From: a virus
Length of the DNA: 62,744 nucleotides
Reading direction: 5' to 3' (one strand)
IMG/VR virus record: IMGVR_UViG_3300030390_001226
Span: 1 to 62,744 of that record
The translations under genes were made by a program, and so were the position numbers. This document shows positions 1 through 15,600 of this stretch, piece after piece (position 1 is the first letter of the stretch; each line of letters starts with the position of its first letter). The notes under the pieces were generated by a model. It was not told the DNA's origin. It was given only the letters and a program-made list of their open reading frames with translations, and made no database searches.

Positions 1-113
1 CAAATGATAACTGTTATAATTGATACACCAAACGACCAAATCTTATTTTTTAAAGATGATGGAAGTGTAGAGTCAAAAACAGGAGCATCTTGGTCAGGTA
101 ACTTTAATAATAC
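1..113. repeat. Terminal direct repeat, copy 1 (contig circularity overlap)
   Basis: Bases 1-113 are identical to bases 62632-62744. The repeat lies inside one reading frame that continues in frame across the join (codons begin at 1 and at 62632). This is what an assembler leaves at the ends of a circular or circularly permuted molecule. A physical short terminal repeat is possible but would have to fall in the middle of a gene. Confidence 0.95.
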
Positions 114-264
114 AGAACCAATTACAATAGGAAATACATCAAGCGTTAGTGCAGGTCAATTCTTTAATGGCTTAGTGAGTGATGCTTTAGTTTACGACAA
201 ACTATTAACATCTGACGAAGTAGAAAACAATTATAAAGCAGGATTATCTGCCCATACAAATTAA
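1..264 (+). CDS. LamG-domain adhesin/fibre protein, C-terminal part (continues from 61093)
   Basis: This is the 3' end of the gene that starts at 61093 and crosses the contig join. Joined, the product is about 600 residues. This part holds the last half of the second LamG (concanavalin A-like jelly-roll) domain: strands around VIIDTPNDQILFFKDDG, then the closing pattern in which a short loop leads to LVYDKLLTSDEVENNY, a hallmark of LamG_3-type domains. It stops at 264, five bases before the next gene. Role inferred: carbohydrate or surface binding on the virion. The frame is certain; the function is from the family only. Confidence 0.85.
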   Translation, partial: QMITVIIDTPNDQILFFKDDGSVESKTGASWSGNFNNTEPITIGNTSSVSAGQFFNGLVSDALVYDKLLTSDEVENNYKAGLSAHTN

Positions 265-269
265 TTACT

Positions 270-629
270 ATGAGAGGAAATGTACACATGTGTCTAAATG
301 ACACAACTTTTAATCAATTAATTCCAAGTGAGTTATTGAGTACTTACGGAATACCTGAGTACGACGAAGAGGGTACTCAAAATGGTGTAACACATCCAAC
401 TTTTAAAGAGCTTGGAGAGTACAATCGTAGAAAATTTGGTCATAATCCTATGGTAGATATAGGTGATAATAAGTTTTATATTATTGAACTCGAAGCTAGT
501 TGGTTAAATGGTGAGTTGAGTTCTTTACTTATACTGGGAGAGGATTTAGCTTATCCACATAACTGTTTAATGACTCGCACAGAAGCTAGTCAATTTTTAC
601 AAGACAATCAAACTGATGATGGGATCTAA
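270..629 (+). CDS. Hypothetical protein, 119 aa
   Basis: Not recognised. It is an acidic soluble protein of 119 residues with no signal peptide or membrane segment; two cysteines are far apart. It starts at ATG 270, five bases after the LamG gene, and overlaps the next gene by 14 bases, so it sits in a translationally coupled run of late genes. ATG 285 is an alternative start. Position between the adhesin and small structural-type proteins suggests a virion-associated or assembly role, which is inference only. Confidence 0.7.
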   Translation: MRGNVHMCLNDTTFNQLIPSELLSTYGIPEYDEEGTQNGVTHPTFKELGEYNRRKFGHNPMVDIGDNKFYIIELEASWLNGELSSLLILGEDLAYPHNCLMTRTEASQFLQDNQTDDGI

Positions 630-801
630 TTGTACTTGCACAGCTGTAAAGCGAAAAAAGAAAAGTAAGAAGGTTAAAACCATGAAGAAGGGAGGGTCTG
701 TAAAAGATTCTTGCTACCACAAGGTAAAGGCTAGTTATAAAGTCTTTCCTAGTGCTTACGCTTCTGGTGCTATAGCTAAGTGTAGAAAGAAAAGAGGGTA
801 A
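616..801 (+). CDS. Small basic cysteine-containing protein (KKGG and SAYASGAIAKCRK motifs)
   Basis: A 61-residue, strongly basic protein. The N-terminus has two close cysteines (NCTCT), followed by a lysine-rich stretch with MKKGG, then C-Y-x-K-V-K-x-x-Y and SAYASGAIAKCRKK. The last pattern recurs in small proteins of many marine phages. The four cysteines could bind metal. It overlaps the gene before it by 14 bases and is followed after 3 bases by another basic protein. DNA-binding inside the head or a minor virion role is plausible but unproven. Confidence 0.75.
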   Translation: MMGSNCTCTAVKRKKKSKKVKTMKKGGSVKDSCYHKVKASYKVFPSAYASGAIAKCRKKRG

Positions 802-804
802 GGT

Positions 805-1338
805 ATGGCTGTTAGGAAAACGAAAGCAGGTTTAAACCTTAAACGTTGGTTTAAAGAAAACTGGAAAACACCTAAGGGTAAGAAAGATTACTCAAAAGGT
901 GAGAATACCTTTCGCCCTACCAAAAGGATTAGTAAAGATACTCCTTCTACTTGGAGTGAGGTTACCCCAGAAGAAAAAGCTAGAGCACAAAAAGAAAAGA
1001 ACGAAAAAGGAAGAGTATCTAGATATAAAAAAGTGAAAGCAGTAAAGAAAGCAAAAAAAGGAATGGGTATAAAGACTAGTATTAAGTCTGGTAACTTTAG
1101 ACCTACTAAATCTGGAGCTGGGATGACTTCTAAAGGCGTTAAGGCTTACAGACGTGCAAATCCTGGTAGTAAACTTAAAACTGCTGTAACTGGTAAAGTA
1201 AAGCCTGGTAGTAAGTCTGCTGGTAGAAGAAAGTCGTACTGTGCTAGATCTTTAGGTCAGTTAAAAGGAAGTAGTCAGAAGACTAAAAATGATCCTGACT
1301 CTAGGATTAGACAAGCAAGGAGAAGATGGAAATGTTAA
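805..1338 (+). CDS. Basic protein with SYCAR...RRRWKC C-terminus
   Basis: 177 residues, about a quarter Lys plus Arg. It contains a KKAKKGMG segment shared with other basic proteins of this genome. The C-terminal third has KSYCARSLGQLKG and ends in ARRRWKC, a paired-cysteine pattern I associate with small proteins in marine phages. No catalytic motif is seen. It is coupled to its neighbours (3-base gap upstream, 13-base overlap downstream). Nucleic-acid binding or packaging in the capsid is a reasonable guess from charge alone. Confidence 0.75.
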   Translation: MAVRKTKAGLNLKRWFKENWKTPKGKKDYSKGENTFRPTKRISKDTPSTWSEVTPEEKARAQKEKNEKGRVSRYKKVKAVKKAKKGMGIKTSIKSGNFRPTKSGAGMTSKGVKAYRRANPGSKLKTAVTGKVKPGSKSAGRRKSYCARSLGQLKGSSQKTKNDPDSRIRQARRRWKC

Positions 1339-2405
1339 GAAAATTAATTTATGTAGGGTTGTTATTAACTGCTACTACAGTACAAGCACAATTAAATTTA
1401 TTTAGGTTTGCTACTTTTTACGCAAGTTATTCTACAACCACCCCTGCAGCAGAGCCTGTAGGATATAGAGTTCAAGGTATTTACGATCCTGGACATCAAG
1501 ATGATTACGTTAACGGTACTATAGTAGAGATGACTCAGTATAGCGAGCCTAACTTAAATATTACTGTTGGTATAAGAAAAATTGCTAGGTTCAACTACCA
1601 AGTAAAGCAAGGTTTGTTTTACGATGGGTCAGAGCATGAAATTAGTGATTACTCTACAGTGTCTAACGCTCCTGGACTGGAGTATTTGTTTCAGTATTCC
1701 TTCGTTAGAAACAGAGGTACTGAAGTAACTCAACAAGAGTATAAGCTAAGGTATATCTCTAATAACTTTACAGCAAAAGCTGCTTACGTTAATGATGGGT
1801 TAATAAACTTAAGGTATACACTAGGAGAAGCTAGATTACGTAAAAGTTTTGGGTCTTTCGATGTTACAGCAGGTGTAGCACATCGTTCTCATCCTGTTTA
1901 CGGTTACTCACCTATAGAAGAGTGGACTAGAACAAACGATAATGAAGATTGGAAAGATTTAGCAAATTCATATTACTACTTTAGCACATCTCAATCTGGA
2001 GAGTGGATACATATTGATGTTGATGCTGGTGAGTCAGAATGGATTTGTGCTGGCGATGATGAGTTTTATAAGTATTACTTTCCTACGGTACTTAACAGGT
2101 ATAATAAAGAACAACTCGACATAATAGGGTTGCAGCAAGAGGTGTCTGCAGTTATAGGATTAGATTATTATTACTATAACAAGAACTGCTGGTTACATAC
2201 CTGGGCTTCTGTATACCCTATACACAAAGGGTTGACTGATTATTCCTTTGTTAGGAATGGAGATCAATCAGAGTGGGATGCAGGATTAATATTCGGTGTA
2301 AATTTTAACAGACATTTTAGTATATTTGTAGAAGGCAGGCATTTAAAGTTTTGGGACAGACCTTCCTACCAGTTAAAGACTGGAATAAATTATTTAATAT
2401 TCTAA
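1326..2405 (+). CDS. Predicted outer-membrane beta-barrel protein with signal peptide
   Basis: 359 residues. The N-terminus is a signal peptide (basic start, hydrophobic run LIYVGLLLTATT, then VQA before Q), with predicted cleavage leaving Gln at the mature end as is usual in Bacteroidota. The rest is rich in aromatic residues with alternating amphipathic strands, and the protein ends in strands finishing GINYLIF. A terminal Phe is the typical beta-signal read by the BAM complex. It overlaps the previous gene by 13 bases, and the next gene follows after one base, at the head of the lysis module. Possible roles are outer-membrane remodelling during lysis or exclusion of other phages. Exported barrel is well supported; purpose is inference. 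Confidence 0.8.
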   Translation: MEMLRKLIYVGLLLTATTVQAQLNLFRFATFYASYSTTTPAAEPVGYRVQGIYDPGHQDDYVNGTIVEMTQYSEPNLNITVGIRKIARFNYQVKQGLFYDGSEHEISDYSTVSNAPGLEYLFQYSFVRNRGTEVTQQEYKLRYISNNFTAKAAYVNDGLINLRYTLGEARLRKSFGSFDVTAGVAHRSHPVYGYSPIEEWTRTNDNEDWKDLANSYYYFSTSQSGEWIHIDVDAGESEWICAGDDEFYKYYFPTVLNRYNKEQLDIIGLQQEVSAVIGLDYYYYNKNCWLHTWASVYPIHKGLTDYSFVRNGDQSEWDAGLIFGVNFNRHFSIFVEGRHLKFWDRPSYQLKTGINYLIF

Positions 2406-2406
2406 C

Positions 2407-2685
2407 ATGGCGACACAGATTAGCGAAAATAGTGAAGTACAAGTAAGCTTAAAAACATTAGGTGGTATAATTGCTTTAATAGGAACATTGATAGGGATGT
2501 GGTTTACGCTACAAGCAGATATAGCAGAAGCTAAAAAACTTCCTTTGCCTACAGACCCAATAATAAGCAGAATAGAGTTTGACATGAAGGATAAGCTTAT
2601 CCGTCAAACTATTATGTCTACACAGGAAGATGTTACTGAGATTAAAGAAGATTTAAAGATGATTAAACAAAAGCTATATGAGTAG
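2407..2685 (+). CDS. Single-pass membrane protein with C-terminal coiled coil (spanin- or holin-accessory-like)
   Basis: 92 residues: a short polar N-terminus, one membrane segment at about residues 18-36 (GGIIALIGTLIGMWFTL), then a polar linker and a charged heptad-rich tail (about residues 58-92). This layout fits small inner-membrane proteins found next to phage endolysins. It begins one base after the beta-barrel gene and overlaps the thioredoxin-like gene by 8 bases. A lysis or envelope-spanning role is inferred from context; no family is claimed. Confidence 0.75.
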   Translation: MATQISENSEVQVSLKTLGGIIALIGTLIGMWFTLQADIAEAKKLPLPTDPIISRIEFDMKDKLIRQTIMSTQEDVTEIKEDLKMIKQKLYE

Positions 2686-3046
2686 GCTTTTACTTTTATT
2701 ACTACTTACTACAAATATTGTAGCTCAAGAGTTTATAACTTCTAGCTCATTTGACTCTAAGACAGCCAAGGGTACGGTGGTAATAGAGTTCTATGCAGAG
2801 TGGAACGATGGTAATAAAGTTAAGTTTTTACCTTCATTGAAAGATTGCAACGCATATAGAGTGGATATAGTAAAGCAATCCAAAATACAAAAAGAATTTA
2901 AAATTACTTCTGTTCCTACAGTTATAGTACTGAATAATGGTGTTGAAGAGTATAGATTTATATCTAACATTATGTTGCAACTAGATGGTAACAAAAAGAA
3001 AGTACAATCAGTCATAGATGACATAACCTTTGAAAAGTTTCAATAA
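2678..3046 (+). CDS. Secreted thioredoxin-fold protein lacking the CXXC active site
   Basis: 122 residues. It has a signal peptide (LLLLLLTTNIVA before Q). The mature part has thioredoxin landmarks in order: strand VVIEFYAEW at about residues 33-41, where the active-site cysteines should follow but NDGNK is found instead, then a central strand and ITSVPTVIVLNNG with the conserved cis-proline. The only cysteine present (DCNAY) is not in the active-site position. It is therefore unlikely to be an oxidoreductase and more likely a binding or scaffold derivative exported to the periplasm. It overlaps its neighbours by 8 bases and 1 base in the lysis module. Confidence 0.8.
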   Translation: MSRLLLLLLLTTNIVAQEFITSSSFDSKTAKGTVVIEFYAEWNDGNKVKFLPSLKDCNAYRVDIVKQSKIQKEFKITSVPTVIVLNNGVEEYRFISNIMLQLDGNKKKVQSVIDDITFEKFQ

Positions 3047-3636
3047 TGAACAAATTAAATTTAAAAAGATTTCAGAACTCAACTGTAGCTATATCTTTTT
3101 TTTGGGTTGCAATGATATTCCTATACATAATAGGTTTTGTATTTTTATCTTTTAACGCTAAAGCTCAAGGATATAAAAGGGTTATAGTGACAGAGTCTAG
3201 CTTAATGGATGGCATGTATTGGTCTATAGGTAACTGTGATTTAGATACCACTTTGTTTAGTGGTAATAATGCAGTTGATGAAATCGTTTATATGCCGAAG
3301 AATTATAAAGTATTAATGAGAGACTTTGATGGTAACGCTTGGGGTGGTTCTGTTATGATTATAGTTAATTACCCTGAACTAGATAGTGCACTTACTTTAG
3401 ATTACTATAACGCAACACAAAACTTAATAGTTCATGATTGCGGTTGTAATGACTCTACTTATTTTGATCAAAACCTACATCCTTATGACTTATCAGTAAG
3501 AGAGATAAGCAATATACTATTTAAGCCTACTATATATTATGATATGCTAGGTAGGGTGGTAACACCAACTAAAGGTATGTATATAGCAAGTGATGGAATA
3601 CTAAGAAAGAAGATATATATAGATGAGATTAAGTAA
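3046..3636 (+). CDS. Exported protein with a type IX-like C-terminal sorting motif
   Basis: 196 residues. A long N-terminus leads to a hydrophobic segment at about residues 15-37 ending NAKA before Q, a signal peptide with predicted Gln at the mature end. The middle has the pattern YKVLMRDFDGNAWGGSVMII, resembling the GDGWNG motif of secreted Flavobacteriia proteins. The end carries YYDMLGRVV, then KGMYI and KKIYI, the usual spacing of Bacteroidota Por/type IX secretion C-terminal tags. It may be passed to the cell surface by the host type IX machinery. Overlaps: 1 base upstream, 14 bases with the endolysin gene. Confidence 0.75.
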   Translation: MNKLNLKRFQNSTVAISFFWVAMIFLYIIGFVFLSFNAKAQGYKRVIVTESSLMDGMYWSIGNCDLDTTLFSGNNAVDEIVYMPKNYKVLMRDFDGNAWGGSVMIIVNYPELDSALTLDYYNATQNLIVHDCGCNDSTYFDQNLHPYDLSVREISNILFKPTIYYDMLGRVVTPTKGMYIASDGILRKKIYIDEIK

Positions 3637-4078
3637 AAACTTTGCGTTGTCTGAGATAACCCACAGCAACACAGCTAAAAGATTAGGTATAGACAATGAG
3701 CCGACTGAAACGCACCTACAGAATATGCAGCATCTTGTGGATGATATTTTACAGCCTCTTCGTGACGGTGTTGGTCCTATCAGGATCAGTAGTGGTTATC
3801 GCAACCCGTCACTCAATCGTGCTATTGGTGGCAGCCGTTCTTCGCAGCACTGCAAAGGTCAGGCATTGGACATCCAGTTTTGGGAGATGGGGCAGATGAA
3901 CAACAAAGTTATCTATGATTTTATTCTAGATTCGAATATGGAATTTGATCAAATGATAAATGAGTTTGACTTTGCTTGGATACATATATCTTTAAAAGAT
4001 AAAGGTAATAGAAAACAAGTACTCGAAGCCTACAAAGATGAGGATGGAGATACTAAATACAAATACGCAAATGTTTAA
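3623..4078 (+). CDS. Peptidase M15-type endolysin (D-Ala-D-Ala / L-Ala-D-Glu carboxy- or endopeptidase)
   Basis: 151 residues, the normal size for the short M15_3 family. Motifs: ISSGYRNPSLNRAIGG, SSQHCKGQALDI (the H-x(3)-G-x-A-x-D zinc pattern, about residues 72-83), and WIHIS near residue 115 with the last zinc-binding His. It cleaves peptidoglycan cross-bridge peptides. There is no signal peptide, so release probably depends on the holin-like gene next door, which overlaps the stop codon. Bases from about 3700 to 3900 are visibly richer in G+C and use different synonymous codons from the flanks, suggesting recent recombination of the catalytic core. Function is confident. Confidence 0.9.
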   Translation: MRLSKNFALSEITHSNTAKRLGIDNEPTETHLQNMQHLVDDILQPLRDGVGPIRISSGYRNPSLNRAIGGSRSSQHCKGQALDIQFWEMGQMNNKVIYDFILDSNMEFDQMINEFDFAWIHISLKDKGNRKQVLEAYKDEDGDTKYKYANV

Positions 4079-4460
4079 AAATATACTTAAAAGTTTAGTA
4101 GGACAAGCCTCTAGTATAATAGACGAGGTTGTTACTACAGACGAAGAACGATTAGTCCTTAAGAATAAATTAGAGCAGTTAGGTAAGGAACATGAGCAGG
4201 AAGTATTCAAACTAGAAGTTGAGGATAGAAAAAGTGCTAGAACAATGTTTACTGATGATAGCGTTATACAAAAGTTGTTAGCTATTATTTTCACTTGCGC
4301 TTATTTTTTTATATCTTATTTTATGTTTAAATATTTTATAACTAACACACTAGATCTTTCTGACTACGAGATAGGATTTATCTCAACAGTCTTTGGAGCT
4401 ATGTCAAGTAAAGTGAACACAATAATTGACTTCTTCTTTGGAGGGTCTTCTAAAAAATAA
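4071..4460 (+). CDS. Holin-like protein (3-TM GTA-holin type)
   Basis: 129 residues if started at ATG 4071, whose ATGTTTAA overlaps the stop of the endolysin gene; an in-frame ATG at 4038 is inside that gene and less likely. A short helix is followed by a charged helical stretch (about residues 10-60), then two clear hydrophobic segments (IIFTCAYFFISYFMF and FISTVFGAMSSKVNTIIDFFF). The organisation resembles the holin family found next to M15 endolysins in phages and gene-transfer agents. It would make inner-membrane lesions that release the endolysin. Confidence 0.8.
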   Translation: MFKNILKSLVGQASSIIDEVVTTDEERLVLKNKLEQLGKEHEQEVFKLEVEDRKSARTMFTDDSVIQKLLAIIFTCAYFFISYFMFKYFITNTLDLSDYEIGFISTVFGAMSSKVNTIIDFFFGGSSKK

Positions 4461-4464
4461 AAAA

Positions 4465-6012
4465 ATGTCTACACTTAAAGGTAAATCATTATCTTCAACA
4501 TATCAGAACTTATTAAAAACAGCTTCTGAAATAAAAAACACTAGTTTAAAGGATGTAGAGACTGGTTCTGGTAATGCTACAGCAATGAAGTTATCTACTG
4601 ATAAGGCTGAGTTTACAAAAGTTGGTATTGGTACTGCAGGATCCACTCCTGACGGTTTACTTCACGTTGTTGGAGTTAGTGCAGGTTCTGTTACGTCAAG
4701 CCTTTCAGCTAACCAACTAACTTTAGAGAACTCAAGCGACTCTGGTTTAACAATACTTTCTGGGGCTTCTTCATCTGGTAATATATTTTTTGGAGATGTT
4801 AATAGCAACTCTTCAGGTCAAATATTTTACGACCATAGTAGTGATTACTTAGGTATATCTACAGGTGGTTCTGAAAAGTTTAGAATTGATAGTAATGGTA
4901 ACTTAAATGTTTCTGGTACTATATCTCAGTCTGATGATCGATTTGAACTTAAAGAAAGTTTTGAAAAAGTTCCAAGCTTACAAACTGCTGTTGTAGATCA
5001 AGATACTAATGCAACTACTGCTGTAACACTAGATGCTAAGTATGGTATTATAACTATGCAGTCTCATGATTTAGCTGCTACAGATACGGTAGAATTTACA
5101 TTTAATAATAATCACATATTTGGATTATCATCTCAAGTTCATGTTCAACTTCATGGATGGGTAACTGACGATGATAATGCTATGGTTAATGTATTGGTTT
5201 ATGATGTAGCAGATGGTAGTTGCAAGATAAGACTAGGTACTAACGGTACTAATGTTACTGCACAAGTGTTTAAGTTGTCTTTTATTGTAGACCCATACAT
5301 CACCCCTAATCAAAACTTTGTTTTAAGTGGTGTTAATTCAGGAGGTTCTCAAGTATCTGGAAACACTGGTAGGAGTTTTACTTTTGCTGGTATTAAATTA
5401 ATTACTGGAACTACTAATGATGATAGGTCAGTAATAAGTCCTAGAAGAGGAAATACAGAGCTTAATGCAGGTATTAATTCTTCAGCTTTTGCTTCAGTAT
5501 TGTTTGGTACTGAAAATAAAACAGAGTATTCTGCAGCAATATCAACTTCTGGTAGTATAGCTGATTCTTCTTTTTGGTCTGGATTAAAGCTTACTGAAAC
5601 AGGTGTATACGCTACAGATGCTAATCAAGCTTATTTTTTATACTCTGCAGCTGATGATCAAGGAGCGTTAACTACAAATGGTAATTTACATTTTGTTTAC
5701 AGTATAGCTAACGTAGATTACGTTACTAACCTTGGTATAGTTGTAGAAGAAAATACAGTTTACAGAATTAAAATAGTATTTGACGAAAATAGACAAATAT
5801 CTATATCGGTTAACAATATAAAGTACGGTTTAACAACTACACCTACCAGCACAACTGCAGGTGGGTTAACTCAGTCTGTAGCTACAACTAAATCTTTAGC
5901 TATGACAAACGATATAGACCTACTTCCCTTTACAGGTATTCAAACACTTACAACGTCAAGTAGGGGAATGCAGATTGGATATATTAAATTATCAAGAGAT
6001 TTATACGAGTAA
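4465..6012 (+). CDS. Tail fibre-like structural protein
   Basis: 515 residues from ATG 4465, chosen over the in-frame ATG 4426, which lies inside the holin gene. Near residues 45-60 is KVGIGTAGSTPDGLLHVVG, the 'GIGT...LHV' element typical of trimeric fibre shafts, followed by GGSEKFRIDSNGNLNVSGT, another shaft repeat. The remainder is Ser/Thr/Asn/Gly-rich with beta-strand periodicity. The same shaft signature occurs in the opposite-strand fibre at 57432-59114. Role: virion fibre or side appendage. Start of the long late gene run into the packaging genes. Confidence 0.8.
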   Translation: MSTLKGKSLSSTYQNLLKTASEIKNTSLKDVETGSGNATAMKLSTDKAEFTKVGIGTAGSTPDGLLHVVGVSAGSVTSSLSANQLTLENSSDSGLTILSGASSSGNIFFGDVNSNSSGQIFYDHSSDYLGISTGGSEKFRIDSNGNLNVSGTISQSDDRFELKESFEKVPSLQTAVVDQDTNATTAVTLDAKYGIITMQSHDLAATDTVEFTFNNNHIFGLSSQVHVQLHGWVTDDDNAMVNVLVYDVADGSCKIRLGTNGTNVTAQVFKLSFIVDPYITPNQNFVLSGVNSGGSQVSGNTGRSFTFAGIKLITGTTNDDRSVISPRRGNTELNAGINSSAFASVLFGTENKTEYSAAISTSGSIADSSFWSGLKLTETGVYATDANQAYFLYSAADDQGALTTNGNLHFVYSIANVDYVTNLGIVVEENTVYRIKIVFDENRQISISVNNIKYGLTTTPTSTTAGGLTQSVATTKSLAMTNDIDLLPFTGIQTLTTSSRGMQIGYIKLSRDLYE

Positions 6013-6030
6013 AAACTAAATTAAATTAAA

Positions 6031-6306
6031 ATGGATTCAATTAACCCTATTATTAGAAAGATTACAATAGGGGACTTAAAGCAAGGATTGACTTACCAGG
6101 TAGGTCAAAGAATGTTAGGAGGTTCCTTAAAAATTACAGCCATCATACAAGACGAGGCAGCTTGGTATAAGCACCAACAAGTAGTGTATGATGTGTACAT
6201 AAAAAAAGAAGAAGAGGAATTTTCTAGACCTTGGAAAAGGTTTTTCTCTCAGCCAACAGCTATAGAATACAACACAGATGTCCTAGATGACTACGAAGTA
6301 AAGTAA
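6031..6306 (+). CDS. Hypothetical protein, 91 aa
   Basis: Not recognised. 91 residues, mixed alpha/beta by composition, with LTYQVGQRMLGGSLKITAII followed by a charged KKEEEEF stretch. No signal peptide or membrane segment. It lies between the fibre gene and the GroES-like gene in the late transcription unit, with short A-rich gaps (18 and 16 bases). It could be a virion or assembly protein. Confidence 0.7.
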   Translation: MDSINPIIRKITIGDLKQGLTYQVGQRMLGGSLKITAIIQDEAAWYKHQQVVYDVYIKKEEEEFSRPWKRFFSQPTAIEYNTDVLDDYEVK

Positions 6307-6322
6307 AATTAAAAAACAAAAG

Positions 6323-6892
6323 ATGAAGCCAATTAAAGATCTCTACTGGATAGAAGTAGAAAAAGAAACAGAAGACACTATAATGCTTAATGGAGAAGAA
6401 TTGTATAGAGATACCTCTTACGATCCTATGAAGTTAGCTAGGCAGTATGGTACTATATATAAAACACCAATACAGGATACTAAAGATGTGGGTATACAGG
6501 AAGGGGATAAAGTTTGGTTTCACCACTTTATTGCAACACCAGTAAACCATGTTAAGCACGCAGACAGGGAAAATATATACCAAGCTTTCGCAGAGCAGAT
6601 ATACCTTATTAAAAGAGGTGAGGAGTATATACCAATAGGTGTCTGGAACTTTATGGAGCAAGAGATGCTTGACCCAAAAGAAACAAGTTCAGGTATTATT
6701 GTAGAGTCTCAAAGCAAAGAGAACGAGCTTCATGGTAAGGCAGTCTTTATAAATGACTGGATGAAGGATCAAGGAGTTGAAGAAGGAGATAGAGTGATGT
6801 GGAGCGAGAACTCTGAGTACGATATGGATATAGATGGTGTTAAGCTTCTTAGGATGCGTAATTTTGATGTATTAGCTGTATATGGAGACTAG
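6323..6892 (+). CDS. Tandem (two-domain) GroES-like co-chaperonin
   Basis: 189 residues, about twice the length of GroES (about 95). The C-terminal half has the full GroES layout: a mobile-loop-like SSGIIVES (about residues 120-127, comparable to the GGIVL GroEL-binding loop), HGKAVFIN, GVEEGDRVMW, and the closing KLLRMRNFDVLAVYGD, matching the 'L-I-x-E-x-D-I-L-A-V' end. The N-terminal half repeats it more loosely: LYWIEVEKE, YGTIYK, GIQEGDKVWFHH and IYLIKRGEEYIPIG. Comparable double GroES proteins are known as chloroplast Cpn20, and T4 uses a single-domain gp31 to fold its capsid protein. It likely adapts host GroEL for phage capsid folding; the capsid gene is about 6 kb downstream. Confidence 0.85.
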   Translation: MKPIKDLYWIEVEKETEDTIMLNGEELYRDTSYDPMKLARQYGTIYKTPIQDTKDVGIQEGDKVWFHHFIATPVNHVKHADRENIYQAFAEQIYLIKRGEEYIPIGVWNFMEQEMLDPKETSSGIIVESQSKENELHGKAVFINDWMKDQGVEEGDRVMWSENSEYDMDIDGVKLLRMRNFDVLAVYGD

Positions 6893-7169
6893 CGGTAAGA
6901 ATTATGCTTTAGACACCTTAGAGAGGCTTATAGAGGCTAGTAAGGGAGCTATAGATCTTTTAATAGAGGAGATTAGTAAACCATTACTAGAGGAAGATGA
7001 CGCAAAAAGAAGGCAAGCTATAAAAGCAAAGAGAGAATGTTTTGAAGATTGTCAAGAAATACTACTAGGTATTAAAAATCTAGAAGATAGAATTAAGGAC
7101 GGTTCTTCATTAATAGAAGATAAGAAAGATTTTAAAGGTTCTTTTGCAGAGAAGTATGCAAGAAAATAA
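6882..7169 (+). CDS. Small helical protein before terminase (possible small terminase subunit)
   Basis: 95 residues, strongly helical with heptad-like Leu/Ile spacing (LERLIEASKGAIDLLIEEI) and many charged residues. It overlaps the co-chaperonin gene by 11 bases and the terminase start by 14. Size and position immediately upstream of the large terminase would suit a small terminase subunit, but no DNA-binding motif is evident, so this is a positional guess. Confidence 0.65.
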   Translation: METSGKNYALDTLERLIEASKGAIDLLIEEISKPLLEEDDAKRRQAIKAKRECFEDCQEILLGIKNLEDRIKDGSSLIEDKKDFKGSFAEKYARK

Positions 7170-9234
7170 CACGATATATTTAAGCGAAGAAAGTCATGGC
7201 GAGGTAATGAAGTTTGACAATTTAAAAATTGTCTTACCTAAAAAGCCCAGGTATAAGAAAGATATACTTTACCATAACTTACCCAAAGCAAAGCAGAAGT
7301 GGACTAGAATACCTCCACCAAAAGCTTTAACAAGGGCGAATGCTTCTGACTTTGTAGATTACATAGAGGAAGAGTTTAGACGTAGAATGGAAGGGTTATG
7401 GTTTTATAACAACGGAGTTCCTACGTATATCACTGGGTCACATTATATGTTCATCCAGTGGAGTAAGATTGATGTAGGGTATCCTGATTACAGAGATGCT
7501 AACAGAACGTTCTTTATTTTTTGGGAAGCGTGTAAATTAGATAAAAACTCTTATGGGATGTGTTTCCTTAAGAATAGACGTTCTGGTTTTTCATACATGG
7601 CTAGTAGTGAGACAGTTAATTTATCTACTATGACTTACGAAAGTAGGTTTGGTATATTATCAAAAACTGGGGCAGATGCTAAGACTATGTTTACTGATAA
7701 GGTGGTTCGTATATATCGTAACTACCCTTTCTTTTTTCAACCTATACAAGATGGTTCTAGTAATCCTCGTGTAGAGCTTGCGTTTAGAGAGCCTGCTAAA
7801 AAGATAACAAAGAATCAGAAGCACATAGAGGACTCTGAAGCTTTAAATTCTAGTATTGACTGGAAGAACACTGGTGATAACAGTTACGATGGGGAGAAGT
7901 TAAAACTTCTTGTTCATGACGAGGCTGCTAAGTGGATTGGTCAAAACTCTATAAAGAAGAACTGGGGTGTTACTCAGACTTGTTTATTGTTAGGTAGAAA
8001 AATTGTAGGTAAGTGTATGATGGGGTCTACTGCTAACAAGTTGCAGGATGGTGGCTCAGAGTATAAGGATATATTCTACGACTCTAACTCTGGAGACAAA
8101 GATTTAAACGGTAGAACTAAAAGCGGTTTATATCAGTTATTCATACCAGCTCAGGATAACCTTGAAGGTTTTATAGATGAGTATGGTTATAGTATAGTTG
8201 AAACTCCCGACAAGCCAGTAATGGGTGTTGACGAGATGATGATTGATGTAGGTGCTAAGGATTATATACAGAATAGAAGAGACGCATTAAAGAATGACAC
8301 TGTAGCTTTATCGGAATTTAAGAGACAATTTCCGTTTACTATAGAAGAAGCCTTTAGAAATGACACTCAAAGTTGTATCTTTGACGTTGAAAGAATCTAT
8401 CAACAAATGGATTACAACGAGGTTAATAGTATTACAACTACAAGAGGAGAGTTTATATGGAAAGGTGGAGTAAGAGATGCTGAAGTTATTTGGGTTCCTC
8501 ACGCAAAAGGAAAGTGGGATATTAGTTGGGTTCCAGAGACTCAAGATCAGAACGTTATTGGGAGTAGATTCAATAAGAAGTTCCCAGGAAGATCGGATAG
8601 CTTGGTGGCAGGCTGTGACCCTTATGATCATGACACCACTACTGATGGTAGGAGATCTGATGCTGCTGCTCATGTTTTTCACAAATTTAGTATGTCAAGC
8701 GATGCGTCTATGCAGTTTGTGTGCGAGTATATTAATAGACCTCCTAAGTCGGAGATTTTTTACGAGGACATGATTAAAATGTGTGTATTCTATGGTTGTC
8801 AAATATTAGTTGAGAATAACAAGGTAGGTATATTAAAGTACTTTGAGAACAGAGGTTACTACGAGTACTTAATGGATAGACCAGAAATGACTCATACTGA
8901 GTGGAGTAGAGGAAAGCAAAAGACAAAGGGTATACCTGGATCTGGAGCTGCTGTAATAAATGCGCAAGCAGAAGCTATAGCTACTTATATATATGACCAC
9001 GTGGGTATGAATACTGCAACAGGAGAAATGGGTAGGTGTTATTTTAACGTCTTACTTGATGACTGGAGTAGATTCGAGATAGATAATAGAACAAAATACG
9101 ATGCTAGTATTTCTTCATCATTAGCTTTACTAGCTTCTCAGAAATATATTAAACCAAAAAAGGAATTAAAAGTTTCATCTCCCTTAGTGAAGAGATACAC
9201 TAATAAAGGGATGTCTAGTAAAAAAATAAGATAG
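7156..9234 (+). CDS. terL: Terminase large subunit (packaging ATPase-nuclease)
   Basis: 692 residues from ATG 7156; a TTG at 7144 is in frame but the ATG is preferred. The ATPase domain has a divergent P-loop KNRRSGFS (about residues 139-146), of the RRxGxS type seen in Bacteroidota phage terminases, and a Walker B LKLLVHDEAAKW with D255-E256. The nuclease domain has GCDPYDHD (D488), ILVENN, and a C-terminal acidic residue in TKYDASISS. It cuts and pumps DNA into the prohead through the portal, whose gene follows after two bases. Identification is firm. Confidence 0.93.
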   Translation: MQENNTIYLSEESHGEVMKFDNLKIVLPKKPRYKKDILYHNLPKAKQKWTRIPPPKALTRANASDFVDYIEEEFRRRMEGLWFYNNGVPTYITGSHYMFIQWSKIDVGYPDYRDANRTFFIFWEACKLDKNSYGMCFLKNRRSGFSYMASSETVNLSTMTYESRFGILSKTGADAKTMFTDKVVRIYRNYPFFFQPIQDGSSNPRVELAFREPAKKITKNQKHIEDSEALNSSIDWKNTGDNSYDGEKLKLLVHDEAAKWIGQNSIKKNWGVTQTCLLLGRKIVGKCMMGSTANKLQDGGSEYKDIFYDSNSGDKDLNGRTKSGLYQLFIPAQDNLEGFIDEYGYSIVETPDKPVMGVDEMMIDVGAKDYIQNRRDALKNDTVALSEFKRQFPFTIEEAFRNDTQSCIFDVERIYQQMDYNEVNSITTTRGEFIWKGGVRDAEVIWVPHAKGKWDISWVPETQDQNVIGSRFNKKFPGRSDSLVAGCDPYDHDTTTDGRRSDAAAHVFHKFSMSSDASMQFVCEYINRPPKSEIFYEDMIKMCVFYGCQILVENNKVGILKYFENRGYYEYLMDRPEMTHTEWSRGKQKTKGIPGSGAAVINAQAEAIATYIYDHVGMNTATGEMGRCYFNVLLDDWSRFEIDNRTKYDASISSSLALLASQKYIKPKKELKVSSPLVKRYTNKGMSSKKIR

Positions 9235-9236
9235 CT

Positions 9237-11627
9237 ATGCTTAACAAGAAACAAGAGTCAAACGGTTACCCTTCTCCTTTATCTTCAAACGAAGAAAAGG
9301 CATCATTAAGTTATGGGTTGCAGTACTTTAAAACTATGTATTACGAGTGGCACAACAACAGTGATATATACTTTAGAGATAAGAAACTAAGGTACTCTAG
9401 GAACAGGAGCTACGCTGAGGGAAATCAAGACGTTGGAAAGTACAAGGATTTGTTAGATGTTGGGGGAGATACTTCTTACTTAAATATTGACTGGACCCCT
9501 GTATCTGTTATACCTAAATTTGTTGACGTTATCGTTAACGGTATGGTTAATCAAGAGTACGACATAAAGGCTGAGTCTATAGATCCTGTTGCTGCAAACA
9601 AAAGGTTAGAGAAAAAGAAAAAGATGTATGGCGAGATGCTTACTAAAAGCTTTTTAACTAATCTTGAAGATGAGACTGGTATACCATTAACCCCTGATGG
9701 GTTTGTTGCTGATAGCTCTGAAGAAATTGAAATGTTTATGGCTCTTAACTATAAGCAGAATGTAGAGATTGCTTTGGAGAAGGCTATAGAGTACACGTTA
9801 GATATAAACGATTACTCTGAAGTAAAAAGATACATGATTCGTGATCTTGTTGTGCTAGGTTTATGTGCAGCTAAAACTGACCTATCACCTGTAAGTGGTC
9901 TTAGTATTCGCTACGTAGACCCTTCTAACCTTATAACATCTTTCTCTGCTTCTTCTGACTTTAAAAACATCAAGCATGCTGGAGAGGTTTACTCTATGAC
10001 TATAGCTGATTTAAAGCAGCAAGCAGGTAATGAGTTTAGTGAGGAGGATTATATTAAGATAGCTAATGAGTATGTAGGTAAGAATAATAACCCTATGTAC
10101 TTTAACACTTCAGCTAACTACGAGAATGGTGATAATACTTACGAGTATGATAAGTTTAGTATAAACATATTAGATGCTGAGTTTATTACGAGTCACGAAC
10201 TTAAATACGAAAAGAAAGATAATAAAAGTGGTGGTTACTCTGTAAATAAGAAGCCATCTAACTATAAGCAACCTAAAAACTCTAAGACTAATAGAAAAGC
10301 TATTGGGTCTACAGTTAAGGTTGTATATACAGGTAAATACATTGTAGGTTCTGATTACGTATTTAGTTACGGTTTAATGAAGGACATGCCTAGAAAGAAG
10401 TCTAACTTATCTGAGACTAGGTTGTCGTACATTGTGTACCAACCTAATTTATACAAAATGAAGAGTCGTTCTTTAGTTGATAGAATGGTTCCATTTGCTG
10501 ACCAAATACAATTAGCTCACCTTAAGATACAACACGTACTTGCCAAGGCTAGACCTAAGGGTGCTGCTTTTGAGATAGGTTCTTTAGAGAATGTATCTAA
10601 GGGAGATGGCGGTACATTTACCCCAATGGAGCTTCAAGAGATTTACGATCAAACTGGTAACATCTATTACAGACGTATAGACGATGAGGGTCAAATGACT
10701 GGATCAATGCCTATACAAGAGTTAGAGAATGGTATTGGTAGAGATTTCGGTACTCTTATAGGAGTATACAATCACAACATGCAGATGATTCGTGACGTAA
10801 CAGGTGTTAACGAGGCTCGTGACGCATCTAAACCATCAAGCGAGGCTTTGGTTGGGGTTCAGAAGTTATCGCTTCTAGCATCTAATAACGCTACTAGAGA
10901 TATTAATGATGCTTACCTAAATGTAACTAAGAGAGTGTCTCAAAGTATTACTGTTCGTATGCAGGACCTAATAAACTTCAAGAACCTTCATAGTATGTAT
11001 GCTAATGTTATTGGAGAGACTTCTATGGAATCTATAGACATGATGAATAAGCTTTCTATTCACGAATTTGGTATTACTCTAGAGGTAGCACCTAACGAGG
11101 AAGAGAAGCAAATTATGGAGCAAAACATTCAGGTTTCTTTATCTCAAAAAGAGTTAAGACTTGAGGATGCTATAATGATACGTTCTGTTAAAAATACTAA
11201 GATGGCTAATCAGATGCTTATCTTAAGAAGAAAGAAATACCAAGAAGAGCAACAGTCTCAAGCACAACAGGCTTCAGAGCAGAACGCTCAACTACAGCAA
11301 CAGTCTGCAGAACAAGCGGCACAACTTAAGCAGCAAAGCTTACAGTCAGAGATGCAAATAGAACAAGCTCGTGTACAAGCTAAGAGTCAAGCTGATATGC
11401 AGTTAAAACAATTAGACTATCAACTTAAGGAGCAGTTTGAGCAGGCTCAACACCAAAGAAGATTAAGAGAGATAGAGCTTGGTAACTTAGGTAAAGAGGG
11501 TGCAGCTTCATTACAAGGTGGAGTACGTAAAGAGGTTCAGCAACAGTCTGCTATAAACCAATCTCAGATGATAGAACAAAGAGAAGGTAAAAGAGGACCT
11601 TTAGGTTCTGAAGATAAAGCAGAGTAA
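9237..11627 (+). CDS. Portal protein
   Basis: 796 residues. It follows the terminase by two bases and precedes the probable scaffold and capsid genes, the classical position. Features: early YAEGNQDVGKY, DWTPVSVIPKFVDVIVNGM (about residues 90-115), typical of portal clip/wing regions, a middle with RMVPFADQIQLAHLKIQHVLAKA, VTGVNEARDAS, and a long Gln-rich coiled-coil C-terminus (about residues 660-760, EEQQSQAQQASEQNAQLQQQ). The Gln/Ala-rich tail is like the barrel helix of podovirus portals. It forms the dodecameric DNA channel. Confident. Confidence 0.9.
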   Translation: MLNKKQESNGYPSPLSSNEEKASLSYGLQYFKTMYYEWHNNSDIYFRDKKLRYSRNRSYAEGNQDVGKYKDLLDVGGDTSYLNIDWTPVSVIPKFVDVIVNGMVNQEYDIKAESIDPVAANKRLEKKKKMYGEMLTKSFLTNLEDETGIPLTPDGFVADSSEEIEMFMALNYKQNVEIALEKAIEYTLDINDYSEVKRYMIRDLVVLGLCAAKTDLSPVSGLSIRYVDPSNLITSFSASSDFKNIKHAGEVYSMTIADLKQQAGNEFSEEDYIKIANEYVGKNNNPMYFNTSANYENGDNTYEYDKFSINILDAEFITSHELKYEKKDNKSGGYSVNKKPSNYKQPKNSKTNRKAIGSTVKVVYTGKYIVGSDYVFSYGLMKDMPRKKSNLSETRLSYIVYQPNLYKMKSRSLVDRMVPFADQIQLAHLKIQHVLAKARPKGAAFEIGSLENVSKGDGGTFTPMELQEIYDQTGNIYYRRIDDEGQMTGSMPIQELENGIGRDFGTLIGVYNHNMQMIRDVTGVNEARDASKPSSEALVGVQKLSLLASNNATRDINDAYLNVTKRVSQSITVRMQDLINFKNLHSMYANVIGETSMESIDMMNKLSIHEFGITLEVAPNEEEKQIMEQNIQVSLSQKELRLEDAIMIRSVKNTKMANQMLILRRKKYQEEQQSQAQQASEQNAQLQQQSAEQAAQLKQQSLQSEMQIEQARVQAKSQADMQLKQLDYQLKEQFEQAQHQRRLREIELGNLGKEGAASLQGGVRKEVQQQSAINQSQMIEQREGKRGPLGSEDKAE

Positions 11628-11631
11628 ATAA

Positions 11632-11662
11632 TTTGACTTTACAATAAAAAAGTTTATATTTG
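11632..11662 (+). promoter_or_regulatory. Bacteroidota-type promoter for the scaffold/capsid unit
   Basis: TTTG at 11632-11635, a 19-base spacer, then TATATTTG at 11655-11662, an exact match to the TAnnTTTG consensus. It lies in the 62-base gap after the portal gene and 27 bases before the scaffold start, so it would give extra transcription of the scaffold and capsid genes. Confidence 0.8.
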
Positions 11663-11689
11663 CGAAAATAAGTAATTAAATTTAAGACA

Positions 11690-12766
11690 ATGGATATACG
11701 TGACGAGTTAGTAAAACAGTTTGGAGGAGAGGTTGTTCAACCTCAAACTCAGGGAAATATTGTTGATTTAACTGGCGATGAAAACCAGCCAGCTGAATTA
11801 GAGCAATCTGTAACAGAGGAGAGATCTGATATTATAGACTTGACAGGTGAGAGTTCTTTAAATAATGGGGAGACCAACTTTGATGAGGATCAAACTTATC
11901 AACAAGAAGAGGGTGAAGAAATCAGTGATGATCAAGTTGTCTTAAACTACCTTAGCGAGAAGCTTGGGCGAGACATAGAATCATTTGATGATTTTGACAA
12001 CACTAGTGGAGAAGCAGAAAGCAATAACTTTGCAAGCGAGCAGCTACAAGTTATTAATGATTATGTAAGAGACACTGGTCGTTCAGTTCAAGATTACCTA
12101 AACACTCAAACTGTTGATTTATCTAACGTGTCTGATGACGCTGTAATAAAGGAGTATCTACAACTAGAGAATCCAACTTTAACTGAAGCTGAGTTAAGTG
12201 ATTACATTGCAGCAACATACAAAACAGATGCTGAGGAGTATAGTGCGAGAGACACCAACGCTGGTAAGGTTCAGCTTACTAAAGACGCTAGAGCTGCTAG
12301 AGATTACTTTAATCAGATAAAAGAGGATTACGCTATGCCAACTGAGGCTGGAGATCCTGGAGTATCTGATGCTGACAGAGGAGAATGGTTATCAGAAATG
12401 GAGGGAGAGGTTAATGACCTTGAAGGTTTATCTTTCTCTATGAATGACCAAGGTGAAGAGTTTACTTACAATCTAGATGACGAAGCTCGTCAGGAGATTA
12501 TGGGTTACAACTCAGATCTAGAAAACTTCTTTGATAAGTATGTAAACGAAAGCGGTGACTGGAACTTTGACGCTCTTAATACAGATATGTACATCATGAA
12601 TAACATCGACAAGATTGTTAGAGGTGTAGCTAATCAGTACAGAAGCAAGGGGACAGAGAACGTAATTAATGAGATTAAGAACCCATCGTTTGCCCAAGAT
12701 AAGCAAGCAGCACCTCAGAAACAAGAGTCAACTCTCGACATGTTAAGAAGACAAATACTTGGTTAA
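11690..12766 (+). CDS. Probable head scaffolding protein
   Basis: 358 residues, very acidic, low in hydrophobics and mostly helical. The N-terminus carries two copies of an I-V/I-DLTG element (about residues 24-29 and 48-53) within Glu/Gln-rich disordered sequence. The C-terminus is basic-to-mixed (APQKQESTLDMLRRQILG). Acidic, helical proteins between portal and major capsid genes are typically scaffolds that are removed during maturation. It has its own promoter upstream. No sequence family recognised; assignment rests on composition and position. Confidence 0.75.
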   Translation: MDIRDELVKQFGGEVVQPQTQGNIVDLTGDENQPAELEQSVTEERSDIIDLTGESSLNNGETNFDEDQTYQQEEGEEISDDQVVLNYLSEKLGRDIESFDDFDNTSGEAESNNFASEQLQVINDYVRDTGRSVQDYLNTQTVDLSNVSDDAVIKEYLQLENPTLTEAELSDYIAATYKTDAEEYSARDTNAGKVQLTKDARAARDYFNQIKEDYAMPTEAGDPGVSDADRGEWLSEMEGEVNDLEGLSFSMNDQGEEFTYNLDDEARQEIMGYNSDLENFFDKYVNESGDWNFDALNTDMYIMNNIDKIVRGVANQYRSKGTENVINEIKNPSFAQDKQAAPQKQESTLDMLRRQILG

Positions 12767-12802
12767 AACAAAAATTAATTTTCATTTTAAAAATATAAAA
12801 AA

Positions 12803-14221
12803 ATGGCAACAGTAAGTTTAGCTTCAGGTATGGTGGCAACACCATCAAATGTAGCAGTTGCAACTACATCTAACTATGTAGGTACTTCAACGTTAATTAA
12901 CGCTGATGGTACAGATGGTATTCCGTTACATAAACGTGATGTAGATGAGCAACTAATTAAGAGATACGGTGATCAAGGTATCACTGGATTGATGGAACTT
13001 TTAGGTTCTAAAAAAGAAACAACAGCTCAAACTTTTGAGCACTATGAGGAAACTCTTCTTCATAATCACTTCACAGGTGCTATCTCTAGTAACGATTTAA
13101 CAATCGCTAATGCTTTTGATGATACTGGGGACGCTGCAGGTAACACAGCAGTTCGTGATGGTGACCTTTTATTGGGTAACACAGGAGTTATGTACTACGT
13201 GGCTGGTAAAGCTGATGGTTCTGCTTCTACTCAACCAGAAGATAACTTTCAATTAAAATTAGTATCTAATGGTAATTTAGCTGGATCTCCTGCTGATACA
13301 TCATTTGCTATCGTAGGTAACGCTTACGCAGAAAGAACTGGTCAACCAGTTGGTATCACACCTCGTGTAGATCAATATCAAAACAAATGTCAGATTATTA
13401 AAGAATCTTTCACTGTTTCTGGTTCTGAAGCAACTAACGCAGTTTACGTAAAGGTTAACTCTCCTGAGATGGGTACTGGTTACTTATGGTACTTACAAGG
13501 TGAGGCTGATACTTACCAACGTTTTCAAGATTACGCTGAATTAGCAATGATTATTGGTCAATCTGCTGTAGGACTAGAAGATGGTGCTACTGATGGTGCT
13601 GGAGCTGCAGTTGTAACAACTGAAGGTCTTTTACCATTTATTGAAAACAAAGGTCAAACTATGGATCTTGGTTCTTCAGCAATTACCATGGCTGACTTTG
13701 ATGCTGCTGTTAAGTCTTTAGACAAGTACAGAGGTTCAAAAGAAATGGCTCTTTACGCTGGTATCAACTTATCTTTAGATATTGATGACTTATTAGCTTC
13801 TCAAGGTGCTTACGCAGCAGGTGGTGCTAACTACGGTACTTTCGCTAACAACAAAGATATGGCGTTGAACTTAGGCTTTAACTCGTTCTCTCGTGGTGGT
13901 TATACTTTCCACAAGAAAACTTACGACCTATTTAACAGACCTGACTTGTTAGGTGGTGATGGCTTTAAATACAATGGTTTCGGTATGTGTATTCCTATGG
14001 ATTCACAAAAAGATGCTAAGTCTGGTGAGAAAATTCCTTCGTTACGTATGCGATACAAAGCAGCTAACGGATACTCTCGTGAGATGGAGCACTGGTTAAC
14101 TGGATCTGCAGTTCTACAAAACAAAACTAACGAAACAGATGAGTTACGATGTAACTACAGAACTGAGCGTGGTTTTGAAGGATTTGCTCCTAACCGTTTC
14201 TTATTGTTCAAGAAATCATAA
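12803..14221 (+). CDS. Major capsid protein
   Basis: 472 residues. The segment IKRYGDQGITGLMELLGSKKETTAQTFEHYEE (quoted only to give its position, residues about 50-82, key features: Tyr-Gly-x-Gln, Leu-Leu-Gly, Phe-x-His-Tyr-Glu) resembles the start of HK97-fold capsid proteins of Bacteroidota phages. The C-terminus ends ERGFEGFAPNRFLLFKKS. Codon choice is noticeably more uniform than in neighbours (for example many GGT, GCT, AAC, TAC), as expected of a highly expressed protein. The gene lies after the scaffold, with an A-rich leader. Confident by position, length and composition. Confidence 0.88.
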   Translation: MATVSLASGMVATPSNVAVATTSNYVGTSTLINADGTDGIPLHKRDVDEQLIKRYGDQGITGLMELLGSKKETTAQTFEHYEETLLHNHFTGAISSNDLTIANAFDDTGDAAGNTAVRDGDLLLGNTGVMYYVAGKADGSASTQPEDNFQLKLVSNGNLAGSPADTSFAIVGNAYAERTGQPVGITPRVDQYQNKCQIIKESFTVSGSEATNAVYVKVNSPEMGTGYLWYLQGEADTYQRFQDYAELAMIIGQSAVGLEDGATDGAGAAVVTTEGLLPFIENKGQTMDLGSSAITMADFDAAVKSLDKYRGSKEMALYAGINLSLDIDDLLASQGAYAAGGANYGTFANNKDMALNLGFNSFSRGGYTFHKKTYDLFNRPDLLGGDGFKYNGFGMCIPMDSQKDAKSGEKIPSLRMRYKAANGYSREMEHWLTGSAVLQNKTNETDELRCNYRTERGFEGFAPNRFLLFKKS

Positions 14222-14249
14222 TTATTAATATATAAAAAAACATAAGAAA

Positions 14250-14609
14250 ATGGAGAATTATTTATATTTCGCAAGTGCTGCTGCTGATGGAACAGCCTCT
14301 ACTGAAGAAGTAGCTTGCTTTCCTGCTGGTCAACTATCTCACTTTGAGATGGCAACAACGACATCAATGAGAGTTTACTTTGAGTCTAGTCAAGAAAATG
14401 ACGATGACTCAGGTATAGATGCAGCTCATGTTGTACTTACTATTACTATTGGTAAGCACAAAGAAGCTATACAGGATATTGTTGAAGCTATTAATAGACC
14501 AAGTGGAGGTAACTTTGGTTTTGTTAACATAGCAGACAGTGAACAATCAGTATTTTGCAGTGAGCATGTTACAGCTTGTGCATCTATGTCAGTAATTGAT
14601 GCTAGCTAA
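14250..14609 (+). CDS. Small virion protein after capsid (hypothetical)
   Basis: 119 residues, rich in Ala, Ser and Thr with beta-strand alternation (MRVYFESSQE, HVVLTITIG) and three cysteines. Not recognised by family. It lies 28 bases after the capsid gene, with the same A-rich leader, and a terminator follows. A head-decoration protein is a reasonable hypothesis from size, position and likely high expression. Confidence 0.7.
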   Translation: MENYLYFASAAADGTASTEEVACFPAGQLSHFEMATTTSMRVYFESSQENDDDSGIDAAHVVLTITIGKHKEAIQDIVEAINRPSGGNFGFVNIADSEQSVFCSEHVTACASMSVIDAS

Positions 14610-14638
14610 TAACTAGAGATAGTTAATTATATATTACT

Positions 14639-14664
14639 GGAGGGGGCTTTGTACCCCTCCTTTT
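14639..14664 (+). terminator. Rho-independent terminator
   Basis: GGAGGGG at 14639-14645 pairs with CCCCTCC at 14654-14660 around an 8-base loop, followed by TTTT. It closes the scaffold-capsid-decoration unit and probably partly attenuates reading into downstream genes. Confidence 0.85.
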
Positions 14665-14697
14665 ATAACTTCAAGTTAATTTTAGAAAATAATTATT

Positions 14698-15576
14698 ATG
14701 TCACCAACAAAAAGAAAGGCTGTAACGCCTCCAAGTACTACTAAGGTCGTAGCTCAAGCTCCCATAGTAGAAAAGAAATTCACCCCTCAGTTTACTAACA
14801 AGAAACAAGAGTACAAGCCATCTGTTTATCATTTAGTTTCTAAATCTAGAAATCCAAAAACTAGAATGCCTCAGTATCCTATTGTATCTTTATTAAAGGC
14901 TGAGGATATTATATTTGACCCTGAAACAGGGGAGAATAGAAAAATTAGATACGTTCCTGGAGAAGCTTCTATATTTGCAGATGATCATCCAGAAACAGCT
15001 AAGATGAGAGATCCTATTGCTTTTAACAATGGTTTTCTTTTTGTAGATCACACAAACCCTACCCTTAAAAAATATTTAGATACTTGTAACGCTAACGGTA
15101 GTAATCCTCACAGAATAAAATCTAAAAATATTTTATTTAACGTAAAGGATGAAGAGAAGAATGCACAAGATAGAATAGCTCAAGTGGCTGATGTTATGGA
15201 TGCTGTACAAAGTGCCCTTAAAATGCCTTTAAATGAGCTTGTAGGGTATGCTAAGGTATTAGGTGTCAACACTAACAAGAGTGTAGATGAGATTCGTTGG
15301 GACATGAAGGTTCAAGCAGAAAAGAATCCTACAGCTTTCTTAGCAGGAATGAATGACCCTCGTACAGAGATGAAGCAGTTACTACTTATGGCTCAAGAGT
15401 CAAGCATTATATCTATGAAGAAATCAGCTGTAACTTGGGTATCCTCAGGTAATACAATATGTGTCCCTGCAATTGGAGTTAAGCCTATCGAGAGAATGGT
15501 AGACTTCTGTTCTGAAGGCGAGGGAGAGCAGATATACGCAGAGATAGAGCGTAGACTGCAAGCGATTAATGGATAA
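14698..15576 (+). CDS. Hypothetical structural-region protein, 292 aa
   Basis: 292 residues. The N-terminus is basic, Pro/Thr/Lys-rich and probably disordered (residues 1-45), followed by a globular domain with RIRYVPGEASIFADDH-like sequence and a helical C-terminal half (LKMPLNELVGYAKVLGVNTN, MKQLLLMAQESS, residues about 170-230). No enzyme motif seen. It lies between two strong terminators, so it is transcribed as a near-separate unit in the head region. A head-associated role is inferred from location only. Confidence 0.7.
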   Translation: MSPTKRKAVTPPSTTKVVAQAPIVEKKFTPQFTNKKQEYKPSVYHLVSKSRNPKTRMPQYPIVSLLKAEDIIFDPETGENRKIRYVPGEASIFADDHPETAKMRDPIAFNNGFLFVDHTNPTLKKYLDTCNANGSNPHRIKSKNILFNVKDEEKNAQDRIAQVADVMDAVQSALKMPLNELVGYAKVLGVNTNKSVDEIRWDMKVQAEKNPTAFLAGMNDPRTEMKQLLLMAQESSIISMKKSAVTWVSSGNTICVPAIGVKPIERMVDFCSEGEGEQIYAEIERRLQAING

Positions 15577-15600
15577 TGATTTAATGTAATATATTAAAGA

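Follow-up and report, generated by a model that had tools for sequence, protein, structure and literature searches.

Bacteroidota dominate algal blooms and the gut, yet phage tools for altering the envelope of these bacteria are nearly unknown. Signal peptides of Bacteroidetes obey a Q-rule (PMC5837995), and prophages of Porphyromonas gingivalis carry five Q-rule exported genes of unknown function that were proposed to modify the host outer membrane (PMC10367356). Cryophage has three variable genes with type IX secretion system (T9SS) type A sorting domains, encoding an endoglucanase, a glycoside hydrolase, and a PA14 protein, a situation described by its authors as a 'unique occurrence' (PMC7468147). 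Here we analyze a block of genes at positions 1326-3636 of the 62.7-kb virus record IMGVR_UViG_3300030390_001226 from IMG/VR (positions 1-62,744, hereafter the window, meaning the whole stretch), which encodes a predicted outer-membrane β-barrel (BARREL), a small predicted inner-membrane protein (the product of gene 2407, g2407), a thioredoxin-like protein predicted to be exported (TRX), and a second such protein with a sorting-type tail (TAG). Each ingredient has a phage precedent, the Q-rule exported genes in P. gingivalis prophages (PMC10367356) and the T9SS-tagged genes in Cryophage (PMC7468147). As in the former, phage signal peptides obey the Q-rule; no module was described there, whereas here a conserved trio of genes and its T9SS cargos are found in marine phages. 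As in the latter, T9SS cargos are encoded by a phage, but here the cargo is tied to the trio of barrel, inner-membrane protein, and thioredoxin-like protein, and a short tail replaces the standard one. A limited literature search revealed no published description of the module. In the T9SS of the hosts, a cargo gene is adjacent to the gene of its outer-membrane partner, PorV or PorP/SprF. The phage loci likewise have a T9SS cargo gene directly beside a barrel gene, but the phage barrel has no profile match to either partner.

A possible functional parallel is provided by Llp of phage T5, a small lipoprotein that is exported to the envelope and blocks adsorption, including adsorption to lysed fragments (PMC9586334). 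The module may follow the same logic. We regard as an evenly balanced proposition that it is a phage envelope-export module, which would put a T9SS cargo and the barrel at the surface of the infected cell and thereby block superinfection or re-adsorption. Llp is a single small lipoprotein, whereas the module comprises several genes, among them those of a barrel and a T9SS cargo, stands in a late-gene position, and comes from a window with no lipobox.

The genes of the block, its left neighbour, and the adjoining lysis genes are all on the plus strand of the window. Three open reading frames (ORFs) starting at 1326 (359 aa), 2678 (122 aa), and 3046 (196 aa) have N-terminal junctions TTVQA|Q, NIVA|Q, and NAKA|Q, respectively, with the Gln directly after the predicted signal peptide, as in Q-rule substrates of signal peptidase I. 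Signal peptides and lipoboxes were called by simple home-made rules; one signal-peptide rule applied to all ORFs of at least 50 aa yielded an A/G/S|Q junction for only these three ORFs in the window. They are consecutive, apart from one intervening gene, and overlap or abut one another and gene 2407. An earlier note on the window had described 1326-3636 as a block of three exported genes whose signal-peptide junctions read VQA|Q, IVA|Q, and AKA|Q, of the Bacteroidota type. The ORFs and junctions were recovered as described and the three genes are real, but another member of the module, the gene at 2407-2685, had been overlooked.

The junctions are more than a chance pattern: their Gln is retained while the preceding signal peptides vary strongly across relatives. 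It is invariant in the aligned barrels (Q22, 21/21) and tag proteins (Q41, 19/19), and the thioredoxin-like proteins keep it except in L265-type phages, in L288, and in one distant clade that was aligned with a shift. In 72 of the 75 distinct barrels, [AGS]Q occurs at residues 13-45. The 79 terminase-bearing relatives without the block (911 kb) contain one convincing A/G/S|Q candidate (L049, 6858-7217) and two doubtful ones, under a rule that additionally required an ATG start. The ratio of nonsynonymous to synonymous substitution rates (dN/dS) is 0.04-0.18 over the three exported genes, with 0.06-0.09 for the barrel, which indicates that all three are under purifying selection.

BARREL (1326-2405) combines a signal peptide, a predicted antiparallel barrel in which short turns alternate with long loops, and a C-terminal aromatic residue, the latter being Phe in the window and in 59 of the 75 distinct barrels. 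The AlphaFold2 model, built from 21 sequences, has approximately 12 long strands (mean predicted local distance difference test score, pLDDT, 71.8; predicted template modelling score 0.60); its unusual feature is one 28-residue connection on the short-turn side. The PDB fold matches in the Foldseek and VIA-align lists are outer-membrane barrels, including EstA (Z 15.5), KdgM (15.0), and NalP (14.6), and fix the class of the modelled barrel, not its function. Thus, the model and the fold matches bear out the outer-membrane barrel identity proposed earlier. In 75 barrels, variability is higher in the predicted outer loops (1.78 bits) than in the strands (1.22 bits; permutation p < 0.001). A profile search against PDB sequences gave no match for the barrel, and a PHROGs search gave nothing convincing. 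Identity with the host T9SS partners was rejected: the hhalign probability was 21% over 18 columns for PorP/SprF and 2.5% for PorV, with 96% for PorP against PorV, and the PorP/SprF model was not among the Pfam matches of any barrel. The absence of PorV or FadL-like folds from the VIA list carries no weight. Recent borrowing of the barrel from a host is also unsupported, because in 296 Flavobacteriales genomes the sole strong match is on one phage-like contig (L215), with one marginal match elsewhere.

The product of the gene at 2678-3046, TRX, matches the Pfam thioredoxin family PF00085 (28.7 bits, cut-off 23.5) and PDB thioredoxins (E 6e-7); the sequence match covers the thioredoxin fold with its cis-Pro, and Pro80 is invariant. 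The active-site motif is WNDGN in the window and usually WNxxN in relatives, with N..N in most of the 73 distinct sequences, none of which has CXXC (0/73). Since both active-site cysteines are replaced, the usual thiol-oxidoreductase role is rejected; of the thioredoxin-like protein recognized earlier, the fold stands and the CXXC redox chemistry does not. TRX may be a scaffold or a chaperone. In some modules an additional gene, encoding a predicted exported 100-aa A|Q protein, is located between g2407 and TRX (L001 5812-6114, L087 4141-4443, and also L089, L090, L091, L230, and L250); the L001 copy matches DUF2279/VanZ-like in Pfam.

TAG (3046-3636) consists of an exported YGDGWNG-related domain and a short C-terminal tail (YYDMLGRVVTPTKGMYIASDGILRKKIYIDEIK, 3536-3633), in which the residues D..LGR.V.P..G.Y....G....K are invariant among the aligned tag proteins. 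The domain model (pLDDT 59) is too poor to interpret, and a profile search of TAG against PDB sequences gave no match. Three independent lines of sequence evidence support the tail as a real sorting tag. The first is homology to proteins with canonical tails. In the same module elsewhere, larger S/A/G|Q proteins take part, and ten such cargos with a signal peptide (L001, L003, L215, L265, L270, L275, L278, L281, L286, and L287) score 36.4-54.3 bits with TIGR04183 (cut-off 23), with PF18962 also over its cut-off in three cargos (36.2-51.7 bits vs 27). Some of the large cargos have an N-terminal domain that the tag profile recognizes (best E 2.5e-8), in a match that also spans signal-peptide sequence. 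The second line is tail swapping: cargos L279, L280, and L283 have the same preceding YWLND..YAWVI domain as other cargos and end in a short tail (TDLLGRSV...LFFIYDDGTVDKKI) where the others have the canonical T9SS type A tail.

The third line comes from cellular genomes, where the tail is common to many unrelated secreted proteins of a T9SS-bearing bacterium. The tag-tail profile has 22 matching places in one marine Flavobacteriales genome (G004), which also encodes PorV, PorP/SprF, and 47 canonical T9SS tails. In the fetched regions of G001, G002, and G004, all 25 of 25 tail matches above 8 bits end 0-3 residues from the C-terminus, mostly in signal-peptide proteins with Gln at +1. G004 was reached via the YGDGWNG domain, not via the tail; G001-G003 were partly chosen for their tails. 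The tail profile from phage sequences alone is too weak for significance on a small ORF set, so the whole-genome search and the C-terminal position were needed. Hence, the designation of a sorting-tag protein holds by homology and tail swapping, with no match to a curated family: the short tail is not recognized by NCBIfam. Secreted proteins of small marine Flavobacteriales (L193-L212; G001, G002, G004) often end in DVLGRE..LFYIYDDGTVEKKIILE, likely an unrecognized T9SS tag subtype to judge by these sequences. The short tail suggests that current family models miss a class of T9SS cargos. A link to the marine virus AG-345-P14 was rejected, as it shares only a low-complexity repeat with a large cargo, and the stretch concerned (L290) has no module genes.

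The search with the barrel alignment identified 358 IMG/VR stretches encoding the barrel. Since the block is conserved in related phages, its absence from all relatives, which would have spoken against the earlier note, is set aside. Eighty of the 358 stretches were fetched, and locus finding was pattern-based and biased towards conserved stretches; single-gene scans yielded 24 loci for TRX and four for TAG, and the operon is conserved in about 100 loci. At least 3.5 kb of flank was available for 41 distinct barrels, of which 40 have g2407 and 40 have TRX nearby, the starts of these two genes being 223-585 bp apart; a tag protein or a large cargo is found near 29 of the 41. Judging from this linkage, the conserved core of the module is the barrel, the gene 2407 product, and the thioredoxin-like protein, and the tag protein or T9SS cargo is a variable partner.

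The trio is borne by several phage backbones. In addition to the window type, in which the large terminase subunit (TerL) is 88-99% identical, these are L094 (TerL 50%); L263 and L267 (TerL 34%), with the order g2407-TRX-BARREL on the strand opposite to TerL; L265, L266, L270, and L273, with the trio beside a capsid-gene homologue; L081, also with an adjoining capsid-gene homologue; and L215, a 43-kb phage-like contig (C32) of the Flavobacteriales assembly G120 with tRNA-modification-like genes (queuosine-type, by eye). In phages with TerL 86-99% identical to that of the window, the barrels are mostly 30-63% identical, and the median identity of the neighbouring g6031 is 99% in phages whose barrels diverge. 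An example is provided by L001, where TerL is 91.5% and the barrel 30% identical and a T9SS cargo replaces the tag protein. By this comparison, the block resembles an exchangeable module that determines specificity. Divergence of the module alleles to 30-60% identity, where TerL (86-99%) and g6031 stay close, is what a role in specificity or at the surface would lead one to expect.

From these data we infer a location for each product, a complex formed by them, passage of the cargo through the T9SS, and a purpose. The barrel would fold in the outer membrane with its long loops outside, the thioredoxin-like protein would be a periplasmic partner or holdase, and the gene 2407 product would serve as the inner-membrane anchor of the set. 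The tagged protein would reach the surface through the host T9SS. Made together with the late genes, the module would alter or mask the surface of the infected cell, and rival phages as well as the phage's own progeny could then not adsorb to the cell or its debris. We favour remodelling of the surface, a single explanation that takes in barrel, surface cargo, and allele diversity together. Several points weigh against it. The barrel model is of only moderate confidence, and the signal peptides were called only by a simple rule. The tail of the window TAG matches neither PF18962 nor TIGR04183, the models that define T9SS type A cargos, and some modules (L010 and L100-L102) lack a tagged protein in their vicinity. 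Variable loops and swapped alleles also occur in ordinary outer-membrane proteins and modular phage genes. Finally, early production is common for exclusion proteins (PMC9586334), but the block is located among late genes.

A bolder version, which we advance tentatively, is that the module is a widespread system by which phages hijack the host T9SS: the barrel, the inner-membrane protein, and the redox-dead thioredoxin fold would receive or anchor the cargo and display it on the infected cell, and the alleles would set the specificity of exclusion. If true, this would be the first described phage machine for secretion and display, with a short uncatalogued T9SS tail.

The main rival to surface remodelling is a spanin-like role, which we consider possible but rather doubtful: the gene 2407 product would act like an i-spanin and, with the barrel and TRX, breach the outer membrane after the action of holin and endolysin. 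Like spanins (Rz/Rz1 or unimolecular), it is a small putative inner-membrane protein encoded beside holin and endolysin. The gene (2407-2685) encodes 92 residues with a single N-terminal transmembrane helix and a helical, coiled-coil-like C-terminus. In 81 relatives, the K/R bias (2.1 vs 1.3) favours the N side of the helix, so that an N-in/C-out, i-spanin-like topology is likely; by composition, the protein could be an inner-membrane component of the two-component spanin kind, which has a periplasmic coiled coil and is encoded beside the endolysin. As noted earlier, the block lies beside lysis genes: an M15-family endolysin (3623-4078; PHROG_894, 1.6e-37; PF08291, 2.8e-17) and a holin-like gene (4038-4460, with the start at 4038 or at an internal ATG near 4071; PHROG_3427 holin, 9.4e-7) adjoin it in the window. 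A recognized M15 endolysin and/or holin is within 6 kb of 31 of the 41 distinct barrels, and in the unrelated contig L215 a peptidoglycan-binding, endolysin-like gene directly follows TRX. By the simple rule, the near-complete genome in the window has no lipobox ORF that could be an o- or u-spanin, and Bacteroidetes phages with recognized spanins use only unimolecular ones (PMC12596118). A diverged paralogue of g2407 adjoins the endolysin in several phages, with or without a barrel, including the barrel-less L070. Copies with the motif FRVKWPRGEMG directly precede the endolysin (L070 5431-5757, L107 6154-6480, and L216 9847-10173), and this paralogue is possibly a lysis protein.

The spanin explanation is weakened by at least three backbones, the L081, L263, and L265 types, in which no recognized lysis gene adjoins the module. 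Mutual exclusion of the module and spanins was not seen, as relatives without the block mostly have no lipobox candidates either. Unlike spanins, the module has no lipobox partner and includes an extra barrel, a thioredoxin fold, and a T9SS cargo; neither the T9SS-tagged surface protein, which reaches ~1,000 aa, nor the strong diversity of alleles is accounted for by lysis. With its outer-membrane barrel joined to a T9SS-tagged protein, the conserved, swappable module offers concrete candidates for exclusion or for outer-membrane lysis in Bacteroidota phages.

It seems unlikely that the block is an accessory metabolic or fitness module, in which a porin-like uptake channel and a secreted glycan- or calcium-binding protein feed or protect the infected cell and contribute to neither exclusion nor lysis. 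The substrate porins KdgM, NanC, and Tsx are among the listed fold matches of the barrel, but outer-membrane barrels all resemble one another; the weak similarity of the TAG domain model to Ca-dependent lectins (Z 6.1) means little on a model with pLDDT 59, and no enzyme or substrate-binding family was found in the module. Still less probable, to a degree that makes it marginal, is that the exported proteins form part of the virion, or assist in its assembly, and pass through the envelope. The module does stand among late or structural genes in most contexts, as with the capsid-gene homologues of the L081 and L265 types, but virions of tailed phages assemble in the cytoplasm, and the predicted cleaved Sec signals and T9SS tails would direct proteins out of it. 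Chance or mis-called genes can be dismissed for practical purposes, since signal peptides are easily over-called but the low dN/dS, the invariant junction Gln, and the operon conserved in so many loci would hardly arise in this way.

The window belongs, by sequence similarity, with phages of marine or aquatic Bacteroidota: its terminase is nearest to those of Elemovirus, Maribacter phage Panino, and podovirus ctfjg026 (37-48% identity). The first ORF (4-264) and the last ORF (61093-62744) appear to be parts of one gene that is intact in the relative L081 (3136-5391), the left end being judged by eye. Because both ends seem to map within this single gene, the window is probably a nearly complete, circularly permuted genome. 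Positions 1-20000 had zero DNA matches to cultured phages. At the protein level, neither the barrel nor gene 2407 nor a tag-protein relative had a match in cultured phages, and TRX had two weak ones; no cultured phage carrying the module was found.

The structural region of the window contains two very large ORFs, 17145-26657 (3170 aa) and 29117-39694 (3525 aa). The left neighbour of BARREL encodes a basic protein with DUF5872/DUF6321 domains (805-1338), and in the window clade the module or its cargo is inserted directly after this gene. In L001 and L003, a T9SS cargo gene is located between the DUF5872/DUF6321 gene and BARREL.

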